From contig NZ_KQ969506.1 of assembly GCF_001578875.1 (NCBI RefSeq), positions 1,188,984-1,233,882 of the forward strand: a stretch of DNA of 44,899 bases, given 5' to 3'. Shown here piece by piece: positions 19,330-34,672 of the stretch; positions within the stretch are counted from its first letter, which is position 1; each line of letters starts with the position of its first letter. The stretch is from Streptococcus sp. DD13. Its GTDB lineage: Bacteria; Bacillota; Bacilli; Lactobacillales; Streptococcaceae. Made by a program: the position numbers and the translations under genes. The notes beneath the pieces were generated by a model. That model did no database searches. It was not told where the DNA came from and saw only the letters and a program-made list of their open reading frames with translations.

Positions 19330-19378
19330 AATAAGGCTCCTTTATCATTGGGGGGAGCTGTCCTAGAGAATTCTATCG

Positions 19379-19466
19379 ACAGCGGATGCAATGGTTCACC
19401 GCGTTTTCACTTCGTTGTATAGCAACATCCCGTCCATACACACTTGACGCAAACCACCTACTCTGT
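19379..19466 (-). ncRNA. Tetrahydrofolate riboswitch aptamer (folT motif)
   Basis: The minus strand runs from ACAGAGTAGGTGG through GTGTGTATGGACGGGATGTT and ACAACGAAG to AACGCGGTGAACCATTGCAT and CCGCTGT. This follows the known streptococcal THF riboswitch closely in order and sequence. P1 is closed by ACAG and CTGT. Downstream, GCTGTC can pair with GGACAGC, and AGCTCC can pair with the ribosome site GGAGC before the TTG start. That fits translational shut-off when folate is bound. Confidence 0.93.
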
Positions 19467-19524
19467 TCTTTTCCTGTTCATCATACCATAAAAAAGGACA
19501 TTTGTACAGTATCCGTTTTCAAAA

Positions 19525-30210: not shown

Positions 30211-33200
30211 TTATTCTTCGGACCGAGCAAAGGCTGCGGCTGCATCTGCTGCCGCTTTTGCACGAGCTTTTTCGAGATCATCTACGTGGATAATATCGTC
30301 ATCATCGCCTTCGTCTAAGTCACGAAGCTCTACTTCATGATCATCTTCGTCCAGAACACGCATATCCAAACCAAGCGACTGTAGTTCCTTCACGAGGACA
30401 CGGAAGGATTCTGGCACCCCTGGTTTTGGAATTGGTTTTCCTTTAGTAATCGCTTCATAAGCCTTCAATCGACCATTCACATCATCTGACTTGTAGGTCA
30501 AGATTTCTTGAAGGACGTTTGAGGCACCATAGGCCTCAAGGGCCCACACTTCCATTTCCCCGAACCGTTGTCCACCAAACTGTGCTTTTCCTCCAAGCGG
30601 TTGTTGGGTGACGAGTGAGTACGGTCCGACAGAACGTGCGTGAAGCTTGTCATCGACCATGTGGTGAAGCTTGATCATGTACATGACCCCAACTGACACA
30701 CGGTTGTCAAATGGCTCTCCGGTCCGACCATCATAAAGAACAGTCTTGGCATCAGAGTCCATCCCTGCTTCGCGAACGGTATCCCAAAGATCTTCTGATG
30801 TCGCTCCATCAAAGACTGGTGTTGCGATGTGGATTCCCAAGTTACGTGCTGCCATACCAAGGTGAAGTTCCATAACCTGACCGATGTTCATCCGAGATGG
30901 TACCCCAAGAGGGTTCAACATGATATCAACAGGTGTACCGTCTGGCAAGTAAGGCATATCTTCCACAGGAACAATGCGAGAGACAACCCCTTTGTTTCCG
31001 TGACGACCAGCCATCTTATCTCCGACTTTGATCTTCCGCTTTTGAGCGATGTAGACCCGAACCAGCATATTAACACCCGATTGGAGCTCATCTCCATTGG
31101 CACGAGTAAAGATCTTCACGTCACGAACAACTCCGTCACCACCGTGAGGGACACGAAGTGAAGTATCGCGAACTTCACGAGACTTGTCTCCAAAGATGGC
31201 ATGAAGCAGGCGTTCTTCGGCTGATAAGTCTTTTTCGCCTTTTGGCGTCACTTTTCCGACCAGGATATCGCCTTCTTTTACTTCCGCACCGATTCGGATA
31301 ATTCCCATCTCATCTAGGTTTCGAAGAGCATCTTCCCCAACATTTGGAATTTCGCGGGTGATTTCTTCAGGGCCTAACTTGGTATCACGAGTTTCAGATT
31401 CAAACTCTTCTAGGTGAACAGATGTATAGACATCATCTTTGACGAGGCGTTCGCTCATGATAACGGCATCCTCAAAGTTGTACCCTTCCCAGGTCATATA
31501 CGCGACGACAGGGTTTTGTCCGAGGGCCATTTCACCATTTTCCATAGATGGGCCGTCCGCGATGAAGTCGCCTTTTTCAACGATATCGCCTGCTTTTACC
31601 AAGGTCCGTTGGTTGTAAGCAGTCCCTGAGTTGGAACGACGGAATTTTTGGATATGATACACATCCAATGAACCATCTTCACGGCGCACTTCTACCTTGT
31701 CCGCATCTGCGTATGTGACACGTCCATCATGTTGAGCAATCACCGCGGCACCTGAATCGTGAGCCGCTTGGTATTCCATACCAGTCCCGACAAACGGCGC
31801 TTTGGGATCAATCAAAGGCACGGCCTGACGTTGCATGTTGGCACCCATGAGGGCACGGTTGGAGTCATCGTTTTCCAAGAATGGAATACATGCGGTCGCA
31901 ACAGCAACTACCTGCTTCGGTGACACGTCCATGTAATCCGCTGAATCTGCAGCGTATTCTTGGTTGTTTCCGCGATGACGACCCATCACGATATCATTTA
32001 CAAAACGACCTTCTTCATCCACTGGTGAGTCGGACTGCGCTACAATAAACTCATCTTCTTCATCCGCTGTTAACCAGTGAATTTCATTCGTGACCACACC
32101 ATTCTTACGGTCAATCCAACGGTAAGGAGTTTGAATAAAGCCATATTTATTCAGATGTCCGTATGAAGCTAAGTTATTGATCAACCCGATATTTGGTCCT
32201 TCAGGCGTCTCAATCGGACACATCCGACCATAGTGAGTCGGGTGTACGTCACGGACTTCATAACCAGCCCGGTCACGAGTCAAACCACCTGGTCCTAAGG
32301 CTGACAAACGGCGTTTGTGAGACAACTCAGAAAGCGGGTTGTGTTGGTCCATGAACTGGGACAACTGGGATGAACCAAAGAATTCCTTGATCGCAGCGGT
32401 CACCGGACGAATGTTAATAATTTGTTGTGGTGTTAGCGCCTCATTGTCTTGGACAGACATCCGTTCGCGTAGGTTACGTTCCATCCGAGTCAAGCCGATT
32501 CGGACTTGATTGGCCAGCAATTCACCAACAGCACGAATCCGACGGTTTCCAAGGTGGTCAATATCATCGACACGTCCTAGTCCTTCTGCAAGGTTTAAGA
32601 AATAGCTCATTTCCGCCAGGATATCCGCTGGGGTCACTGTCCGGATGTTTTCAGTAGGATTTGCATTTCCCACGACTGTAACCACACGATCTGGATCAGT
32701 CGGAGCTACAATCTTGAACTTCTGCAATACTACTGGTTCTGTCAGCACAGCAGAATCATTTGGAATATATTCGAACAAGTTCAGGCGATCAAATTGTTCT
32801 CCGAGTGCTTCCATCGCCTCACGGCTCAAGACAGCACCTGCTTCAAAGACAATCTCCCCTGTCTCAGGATCTACAACGTGCTCCGCCAAGGTTTGTCCAA
32901 CCAAGCGTGTCTTTAAACTCAATTTTTTATTGATCTTGTAGCGACCAACTGGTGCTAAATCATAACGACGTGGGTCAAAGAAACGAGCGGTCAAAAGTGA
33001 ACGAGAACTGTCAGCGGTTTTTGGTTCACCTGGACGTAACCGTTCGTAAATTTCTTTCAGGGCTTCGTCTGTCCGAGAGTCCGCTGGATTCTTATGGATA
33101 TCTTTTTCAATCGTATTGCGAACAAGATCACTGTCTCCAAGGATATCGATGATCTCATCGTCGCTTGAAAAGCCTAATGCACGAACCAAGGTTGTGAATG

Positions 33201-33771
33201 GAATTTTCCGAGTCCGGTCGATACGCGTATAGGCAATGTCTTTTGAGTCTGTTTCCAACTCCAACCAAGCTCCACGATTTGGAATCACCGTTGAACCATA
33301 ACCTACCTTACCGTTTTTATCAACTTTGTCATTGAAGTAAACACCTGGAGAGCGAACCAACTGAGAAACGATAATCCGCTCGCCACCATTGATGATGAAG
33401 GTTCCCATTTCCGTCATGATCGGGAAATCTCCAAAAAAGACTTCTTGTGTCTTAATCTCACCGGTTTCCTTATTGATCAAGCGGAAGGTTACAAAGATAG
33501 GAGCAGAGTAGCTCGCATCATGAATCCGTGCTTCTTCTAAGCTATACTTCGGTTCCTTGATTTCATAACCAACAAACTCTAGCTCCATGGTATCTGTAAA
33601 GTTCGACACAGGAAGCACATCTTCAAAAACTTCCTTTAGACCATGGTCTAAGAATTCTTGAAATGAGTCCGTTTGAATCTCGATTAGATTTGGTAAGTCA
33701 AGAACTTCTTGAATTCTTGAAAAACTTCGACGTGTACGGTGTTTTCCGTACTGAACTTCATGTCCTGCCAA
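30211..33771 (-). CDS. rpoB: RNA polymerase subunit beta
   Basis: This is the beta subunit of RNA polymerase, 1186 residues. The rifampicin region ([20 protein letters not shown] then [10 protein letters not shown]) is wild type. I chose the TTG at 33771 (the protein then opens [16 protein letters not shown]) because AAGGAG lies eight bases upstream and other streptococcal RpoB proteins start here. A frame open further upstream to 33819 is a leader artefact. The C-terminal tail is alanine-rich and shorter than in pneumococcus. The promoter is about 340 bases upstream with a terminator-like stem in the leader. Confidence 0.98.
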
Positions 33772-34007
33772 GATAGTAACTCCTTTATAAAAGATCGGAG
33801 AGCGTCTTTTCAAAACCATTCCCCTCCAAGCTGAGCCTGAAACTTAGGCGATTTTGAATCATCCGCTCCAATGCAATATGCTTCGACCACGAGACATCGC
33901 TCGTTTTCTAACTCTTTGCCAGATGCAAAGGAATTTGCCCGATTTGACTGAATTTTTAGAATCTTTAAGAATAGGTAACAATTCTCTAGCTTTTCTAAAA
34001 TAAAGCA

Positions 34008-34054
34008 CAAAAAGAGCAGCTAAATCTTTCTTCGAAAAGCTTGATTTAACTGCT
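34008..34054 (-). terminator. Terminator-like stem in the rpoB leader
   Basis: On the minus strand AGCAGTTAAATC and GATTTAGCTGCT pair over 12 positions with one mismatch and are followed by CTTTTTG. It lies between the rpoB promoter and rpoB, so both tadA read-through and rpoB transcripts must pass it. It may work as an attenuator. Confidence 0.7.
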
Positions 34055-34109
34055 GTTTCGCCTACTTGGACAATATTTCAAGTGAGCAAGACGACAAATA
34101 ATTTAATAA

Positions 34110-34138
34110 ATTATACCATGAATTTCAAAAAATAACAA
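34110..34138 (-). promoter_or_regulatory. Promoter of rpoBC
   Basis: On the minus strand TTGTTA (34133-34138) is followed after 17 bases by a perfect TATAAT (34110-34115). Confidence 0.8.
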
Positions 34139-34162
34139 GCCTTTTTTAAATAGGAAATCCTT

Positions 34163-34672
34163 TTACGAGTCTTGCTGCAGGAGGTCTGTCTGCCTGCTGT
34201 TCTTTTTCTTCTCACGTCCTTGTCTAAAGAAGTCTTGCATGATGGCTGCACAATCTTGTGCCAAAACCCCTGTTTCTAGAGTCACACGGTGGTTGAGCCG
34301 GGAATCTGTCAGGATGTTGTACAAACTACCTGCTCCACCAAACTTTTGGTTGTTGGCTCCATAAATGACCTGAGGAATACGGGCGAGGCCGATCGCTCCA
34401 GAGCACATCACACAAGGCTCAATCGTGACGAATAAGGTACAGTCCAGCAGGCGCCAGTTTTTCAAGGTGCGATTGGCTTCTTGGATAGCCATGATTTCAG
34501 CATGTAGAATGGCTTGTTGCTGCTCCTCACGCGCATTGTGCCCCCGACCGATAATGACCCCATCTTTTACGATAACACAGCCGATCGGAATTTCGTCTTT
34601 GTCTAGTGATTTCTTCGCTTCTTTCAAGGCTTCTGCCATGAAAAATTCTTTTTCTTCTTGTGAGTATTCCAT
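34163..34672 (-). CDS. tadA: tRNA-specific adenosine deaminase
   Basis: TadA converts adenosine 34 of tRNA-Arg(ACG) to inosine. The 169-residue protein has the zinc deaminase signature HAEIMA and PCVMC with GAIGLARIPQVIYGA between the two halves. The start MEYSQEEKEFFMAEAL at 34672 matches the family. The longer open frame to 34750 has no ribosome site. There is no Shine-Dalgarno sequence before 34672 and an extended -10 box ends six bases upstream, so the mRNA may be leaderless. Confidence 0.93.
   Translation of the reverse strand: MEYSQEEKEFFMAEALKEAKKSLDKDEIPIGCVIVKDGVIIGRGHNAREEQQQAILHAEIMAIQEANRTLKNWRLLDCTLFVTIEPCVMCSGAIGLARIPQVIYGANNQKFGGAGSLYNILTDSRLNHRVTLETGVLAQDCAAIMQDFFRQGREKKKNSRQTDLLQQDS

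Follow-up and report, generated by a model that had tools for sequence, protein, structure and literature searches.

How bacteria set the amount of their RNA polymerase is an old question. Antitermination RNAs of the put and EAR types act on RNA polymerase. In E. coli, rpoBC is described as being attenuated, and set apart from the ribosomal protein genes, by a terminator that lies between rplL and rpoB (PMC4670729), and read-through at this site has been tied to the rifampicin response (PMC6181997). In B. subtilis, the L10(L12)4 leader of rplJL is described as a protein-responsive leader RNA (PMC4538822). In the Lactobacillales, an RNA ahead of rpoB was published in 2010 as Lacto-rpoB (Rfam RF01709), in a table row with ‘y’ for cis-regulation and ‘n’ for switch (PMC2864571). 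It is listed in 5′ UTRs of E. faecium (PMC7724050), and Table 1 of a study of S. pyogenes has it among 36 5′-UTR ncRNAs, 35 of which had their start characterised (PMC6431027). In S. agalactiae it lies in the core genome and is counted among the RNAs for which one strain or more shows a probable promoter and terminator signal (PMC6064168); as that study counts terminator signals with this RNA, a terminator near Lacto-rpoB had already been noted in print. RNA-seq of the same species gave 23 Rfam leaders possibly acting by premature termination, Lacto-rpoB not being named in that part of the text (PMC4448216). The hairpin itself is not new, and terminator signals near it were reported earlier in one species; the first-pass annotation of the DNA described here erred in knowing of no such leader in streptococci, since the RNA was reported from both S. 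agalactiae and S. pyogenes. Our literature searches on the leader or its parts returned no tested function for this RNA, known since 2010, and no description of the repeats downstream of it; nor did they return an order-wide terminator, although supplementary tables, which may well record it, were outside the search. Published text, with supplementary tables again outside the search, gave a mapped 3′ end at the stem for no species.

The window, a stretch of 44,899 nt from Streptococcus sp. DD13 (contig NZ_KQ969506.1), carries rpoB and rpoC on its minus strand behind a leader with its own promoter, hairpin, terminator-like stem and U-tract (Table 1). A promoter, a 12-position stem about 50 nt further on, a CTTTTTG tract and a distance of 237 nt from there to the TTG of rpoB had been annotated previously, and re-reading of the window sequence confirmed these coordinates and counts. 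The ORF list opens rpoB at an in-frame ATG (33819), 48 nt upstream of the TTG at 33771; the TTG was taken as the start because a LAGH start at this codon is common to 32 of 33 compared leaders. From the position of the −10 box, transcription is predicted to begin at about 34103. RF01709 matches the leader over model positions 1-58 of 58, above the curated cut-off, and this is its single match in the whole DD13 genome. Judged by membership, as a 5′ leader of rpoB in the Lactobacillales (rpoB by TIGR02013, with promoter and start, and with Streptococcus relatives), the leader is a Lacto-rpoB RNA. It has the hairpin, the loop and the position before rpoB in common with the curated family; unlike the leader in the window, however, the model stops inside the 5′ arm of the terminator and draws it unpaired. 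At its 3′ end the model has 13 unpaired nucleotides (AGCAGUUAAAUCA in the window), of which bases 1-12 are the terminator 5′ arm, and the curated family therefore halves the terminator. Elsewhere in the window, a THF riboswitch (RF01831, 66.8 bits) lies at 19378-19467 on the minus strand.

Table 1 Features of the rpoB leader and neighbouring genes in the window.
Feature	Position	Strand	Details
tadA, upstream neighbour outside the module	34750-34163	-	NF008113, 175 bits (cut-off 150)
rpoB promoter TTGTTA-17-TATAAT, TG before −10	34138-34110	-	−35 TTGTTA, 34138-34133; spacer 17 nt; −10 TATAAT, 34115-34110; 10/12 consensus matches
Lacto-rpoB RNA (RF01709), complete model	34099-34042	-	57.7 bits (curated gathering cut-off 40)
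Possible streptococcal antiterminator	34097-34050	-	UUGUCGU (34097-34091) with ACAGCAG (34056-34050), P1 extended into the terminator 5′ arm; from folding of transcripts ending before the 3′ arm
Hairpin P1	34092-34055	-	10-nt conserved loop AAAUAUUGUC (34078-34069), G-C closing pair; from the RF01709 alignment and cross-family covariation
Terminator hairpin	34054-34015	-	Arms AGCAGTTAAATC (34054-34043) and GATTTAGCTGCT (34026-34015)
U-tract CTTTTTG	34014-34008	-	Predicted 3′ end of a leader RNA of ~95 nt
Degenerate direct repeat TGTTAC-N5-CTTAAA-N3-TCTAAA	33980-33955	-	First half-site 28 bp past the T-run
Ribosome-binding site AAAGGAG	33786-33780	-	Ahead of rpoB
rpoB, from TTG start	33771-30211	-	TIGR02013, 1704 bits for ORF 30211-33819; start set by comparison
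rpoC	30123-26467	-	TIGR02386, 1818 bits

The stem by itself is unremarkable. Its 12 positions comprise 11 Watson-Crick pairs and one G-U (−15.3 kcal/mol), and a lax scan of both strands of the window returned 81 stems at −13 kcal/mol or better, this one included; a consensus terminator scan restricted to loops of 3-8 did not list it, and the whole leader folds slightly better than its shuffles (z −1.33). What exceeds chance is conservation. By one fixed criterion, a terminator hairpin is present in 76 of 77 distinct rpoB leaders, against 26 of 385 dinucleotide shuffles, and the stem that the first-pass annotation called terminator-like is a conserved terminator of the rpoB leader. A conserved stem with a U-tract lies between promoter and gene, the arrangement expected of an attenuator. 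A free terminator scan also found a candidate at each of 84 loci, several of them mis-set on a longer or different hairpin (e.g. L071, L080-L082, L145, L148, L157, L177); for this reason its result was set aside and the case is based on the fixed criterion, pair counts, covariation and named streptococci.

The named streptococci are the best 80 of 563 matches to the RpoB N-terminus of the window, all from Streptococcus and 94-97% identical, which places the DD13 genome in this genus. Among these best 80 of 563, the terminator 5′ arm is identical in 79 of the 79 leaders compared and the 3′ arm has two forms; with both arms nearly invariant, the terminator shows no covariation within streptococci, and this near-invariance suggests a constraint beyond pairing. 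In the other families the five basal pairs (CAAAA/UUUUG) hardly vary, while the upper part varies with some double changes. Counted alone, the terminator is modestly above shuffles there (over 45 distinct arm pairs, 79% paired as against 71%); the count omits 8 of the 64 leaders outside the streptococcal family f1, dropped as unanchored. Right after the T-run, non-streptococcal leaders (families f2, f3 and f4) carry a partly conserved GC-N-N-AAAA, which is more than a terminator needs.

The distribution of the module was established from loci found by the RpoB protein, so that the motif was not used to find itself: rpoB was located in 128 genomes of the order and 61 of the class, and the DNA ahead of it was then read. 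The 91 order loci comprise 31 from searches, the window’s own included, and 60 regions picked to cover genera. The loop motif precedes rpoB at 84 of 84 loci of eight Lactobacillales families (f1-f6, f8 and f9; the window’s own locus is one of the 84), and at 0 of 7 loci of the ninth family (f7) and none of 26 loci from elsewhere in the class; the pattern for this count was written after the sequences had been seen and admits one variant (CTATTATCC) for leader L179. Loop, terminator and half-site were all recovered by pattern in 79 of the 80 named streptococci (best 80 of 563 matches), and in the 80th, L281, all three are present by eye, with a loop variant outside the narrower pattern. RF01709 (E 0.001) finds 154 of 395 genomes of the order, 114 of them above the cut-off. 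An extended model (R1) covers P1 together with the terminator; 45 of these leaders served to build it and match it by construction. In the 128 genomes searched with both models RF01709 finds 42 and R1 81, with one match per genome, and all 81 R1 matches lie within ~300 nt upstream of rpoB, as compared by eye. R1 misses streptococci, as was to be expected of a model to which none contributed. A search of 151 genomes of the class with R1 gave five matches, all from Lactobacillales.

The rpoB leaders of the rest of the class (L102-L127) and of f7 (L150-L153, L169, L172, L173), which are without the Lacto-rpoB loop, have features of their own. A terminator-like stem is found in their last 200 nt in 17 of 26 and 5 of 7 cases, respectively (mononucleotide shuffles 19/130 and 8/35), and several show, by eye, ATGCC soon after a −10. 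An Rfam search of 14 of these loci gave no match. They possibly represent a separate, undescribed attenuator.

Upstream of P1, 69 of 77 leaders carry a promoter scoring 10 or more (2% in mononucleotide shuffles), while in the last 95 nt before rpoB such a promoter is found in one of 77 (shuffles 3%), and a second promoter before rpoB is unsupported in this stretch. On the minus strand of window positions 33300-34500, the only promoter-like sites are the one at 34138 and an overlapping one at 34128. The first-pass annotation named a main rpoB start beyond 34008, on the rpoB side, as a result that would speak against its proposal; such a start is without sequence support, both in this part of the window and in the last 95 nt of the 77 leaders.

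In the window, tadA lies immediately upstream of rpoB on the same strand, and it had been suggested that the stem may simply end tadA transcripts, with rpoB transcripts passing by another route, antitermination. This adjacency speaks for the idea, but the terminator lies downstream of the rpoB promoter and the module stands before rpoB whatever lies upstream. A survey of 20 loci, in which 12 upstream ORFs gave no identification, identified eight: a penicillin-binding protein, a gamma-glutamyl cyclotransferase, two methyltransferases, a Clp ATPase, a carboxypeptidase, an aminotransferase and a helix-turn-helix protein, the last on the opposite strand. tadA is not among the eight, nor does it lie within 1 kb upstream of rpoB in any of the 80 named streptococci (best 80 of 563 matches). 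Because upstream genes vary in this way, the stem is assigned to rpoB, and an origin as a mere tadA terminator is very improbable. On this evidence, transcripts coming from tadA, like those begun at the rpoB promoter, would have to pass the terminator to reach rpoB. The placement of tadA directly before rpoB in the window is unusual, perhaps a local rearrangement.

We conclude, with a probability of roughly 0.8, that this stem serves as the intrinsic terminator of the Lacto-rpoB leader and, as an attenuator, stands in the way of every rpoBC transcript. Sequence and comparison establish that the module exists, is conserved and is tied to rpoB, and that no conserved promoter follows the terminator in the stretches scanned. 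The earlier idea that the leader controls rpoBC is borne out to the extent that attenuation, by a conserved terminator behind the rpoB promoter, is the best reading. As in E. coli, a partial terminator would stand directly before rpoBC; unlike in E. coli, where ribosomal protein genes lie upstream, here the terminator would gate rpoBC’s own promoter. Transcription would start at about 34103, P1 with its conserved loop would form, and the polymerase would then reach the terminator, where some of the polymerases would terminate at about 34008, freeing a ~95-nt leader RNA; read-through polymerases alone would make rpoBC mRNA. The read-through fraction is presumably regulated, with the P1 loop the probable site at which a regulator, likely a protein, would act. 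As with RNAs of the put and EAR types, a structure in the nascent transcript lies ahead of a terminator; action on the polymerase in the rpoB leader would be hypothetical.

A regulated read-through fraction has to be weighed against a fixed attenuator that cuts rpoBC transcription by an unchanging factor without sensing anything. The terminator is predicted to be strong in all families (mean pairing 0.85 over 69 leaders), as such a brake would have it. Nor is any antiterminator or competing helix common to all families, in which the rpoB leaders differ from the protein-responsive rplJL leader of B. subtilis; the two are alike in combining a leader RNA with transcription attenuation for genes of the expression machinery. 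The behaviour of P1 argues the other way, since free covariation in its stem goes with an almost unchanging loop, and a constant brake needs no loop. A brake of this kind alone is therefore unlikely.

The covariation of P1 and terminator was counted without f1 (alignment A2), because an alignment of all families (A1; MAFFT, 52 of the 77 distinct leaders) mixed up streptococcal and other terminators. Of the 64 leaders outside f1, five were left out of A2, then 14 of the remaining 59 by choice (near-duplicates, all remaining f9 leaders, and L156-L158), and neither A2 nor R1 contains f9. For the resulting 45 distinct leaders (f2-f6 and f8), the covariation score is 0.527, a value that none of 500 shuffles reaches (0.194); sliding by 1 to 3 columns gives 0.173 or less. 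Of the five measures, two are not remarkable: the count of pairs with both partners changed (15 vs 13.8; reached in 45 of 500 shuffles) and that of pair types (54 vs 51.6; 112 of 500). P1 is the main source of the signal, 84% of its cells being paired in 56 f2-f9 leaders compared with 52% after shuffling, with a loop that hardly varies and a stem that changes freely. A near-invariant loop on a freely covarying stem indicates recognition by something, and a factor bound at the P1 loop is likely.

In streptococci, P1 could itself take part in the switch. The 5′ flank UUGUCGU can pair with ACAGCAG, extending P1 and blocking the terminator 5′ arm, so that P1 could act as a direct antiterminator, with a ligand or protein on P1 setting the balance between two states. 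In modelled transcripts ending before the 3′ arm, the 5′ arm pairs with the 5′ flank at a mean probability of 0.58 in 13 streptococcal leaders, and the extended P1 occupies the terminator base in the predicted structures. Elsewhere, however, the mean falls to 0.03-0.12 (f2-f6), 0.23 (f9) and 0.33 (f8); the UUGUCGU/ACAGCAG helix contains mismatches and G-U pairs and hardly varies among streptococci, and the complete terminator has by far the greater stability. We regard the two-state switch as doubtful: by these predictions a pairing antiterminator would be best supported in streptococci, weak elsewhere, and not the shared rule. Because overlap of P1 with the 5′ arm is weak or absent outside streptococci, a bound factor is the more likely basis of a mechanism shared by all families.

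Small hairpin-pseudoknot riboswitches use pairing of a loop with an arm, and an equivalent can be drawn here between UUGU of the P1 loop (34078-34069) and the start of the terminator 5′ arm (34056-34051; ACAG in streptococci, ACAA or GCAA elsewhere). As regards a metabolite riboswitch, what is seen is a single hairpin with a conserved loop plus a terminator, compatible with these small types. In 66 of 69 leaders the start of the arm allows all four pairs (UUGU with RCAR). A purine precedes CAAAA in 54 of 56 non-streptococcal leaders; in 30 of these the purine faces G and is unpairable in the terminator. Against this, the pseudoknot would comprise four pairs only, both partners are nearly invariant, and the sole loop variant (L179) is not compensated in the arm. 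A UUGU match is moreover cheap, as the leader tail is A-rich: one occurs anywhere in the tail in 68 of 69 leaders, compared with 59.8 of 69 expected in shuffled tails (streptococci 13/13 vs 7.4). Mean loop-arm pairing in RNAfold is 0.01, a value that does not bear on the pseudoknot since RNAfold cannot model such structures. An antiterminator of this form seems quite unlikely.

The leader might instead act mainly after transcription, its 5′ end pairing downstream or the short RNA acting in trans. The streptococcal 5′ heptamer AUUUGUC pairs (score 12 or more) with a downstream GACAAAU-like stretch in 52% of 50 leaders, against ~8% in two controls. A large block of closely related leaders is without this pairing, however, and the changes are one-sided, which makes a mainly post-transcriptional role improbable. 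In the window, GGGCAAAT (33933-33940) downstream can pair with the heptamer (34099-34093).

Attenuation at the conserved terminator, the preferred reading, may also involve a second, DNA-level component. Past the U-tract lies an array of TGTWAY repeats, in its fullest form TGTWAY-N5-TKTAAY-N3-TGTAAY-N5-TGTAAY. Of the 77 leaders, 35 carry the two-half-site repeat in its strict form and 62 in strict or loose form (expected 0.15 and 0.5); the strict form is absent from f1, where the second half is degenerate, and the loose form is found at none of the 7 f7 loci and at one of the 26 loci from elsewhere in the class. Measured from where the T-run ends, TGTWA copies cluster at 25-28, 36-38, 45-48 and 56-59. 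Within the 90 nt after the T-run, 117 of 127 copies in f1-f6 and f8 fall in 16 register positions, which were picked after the data had been seen (~24 expected; L159, with no T6 run, is excluded). The agreement is 12/12 in f1 (13 leaders, 2.2 expected) and 105/115 in f2-f6 and f8 (54 leaders, 21.4 expected); the f9 register is looser (13/21, 3.9 expected). In all 79 pattern-matched named streptococci (best 80 of 563 matches) the first half-site is at 27 or 28, while the intervening sequence varies. A streptococcal hairpin around the repeat box was also considered (alignment A3, in which 3 of 51 streptococcal leaders were unmatched and three duplicates were removed); it is broken in several leaders by eye and is not claimed.

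The array was compared with the operator of OmpR-family (WalR-like) regulators, which we take to be a direct repeat TGTWAH-N5-TGTWAH. Unlike a regulon site, the four-copy form matches only before rpoB in 128 genomes: its strict pattern, written from these leaders, gave nine matches, each just before rpoB, and a reversed control gave none in the same genomes. As a regulon site would be expected elsewhere too, a dedicated factor or a role in RNA is possible. The spacing of the repeats would suit a protein bound to DNA ahead of a polymerase at the terminator. We tentatively suggest, at somewhat less than even odds, a two-part gate in which P1 and the terminator act in RNA while a dedicated DNA-binding protein on the in-register TGTWAY repeats would bias a paused polymerase to stop or go. 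For the regulator acting at the P1 loop, the polymerase itself or a polymerase subunit, exerting feedback, is an attractive but purely hypothetical candidate, possible at best.

New here are the identity of the motif’s conserved tail as a terminator arm, the nearly order-wide occurrence of the module and its tie to rpoB, and the repeat array at a near-constant distance. If the attenuator reading is true, streptococci and most of their relatives probably set their RNA polymerase supply by the frequency of read-through, and an orphan RNA motif would become a switch that can be tested, acting on the polymerase supply of lactic acid bacteria, enterococci and streptococci.
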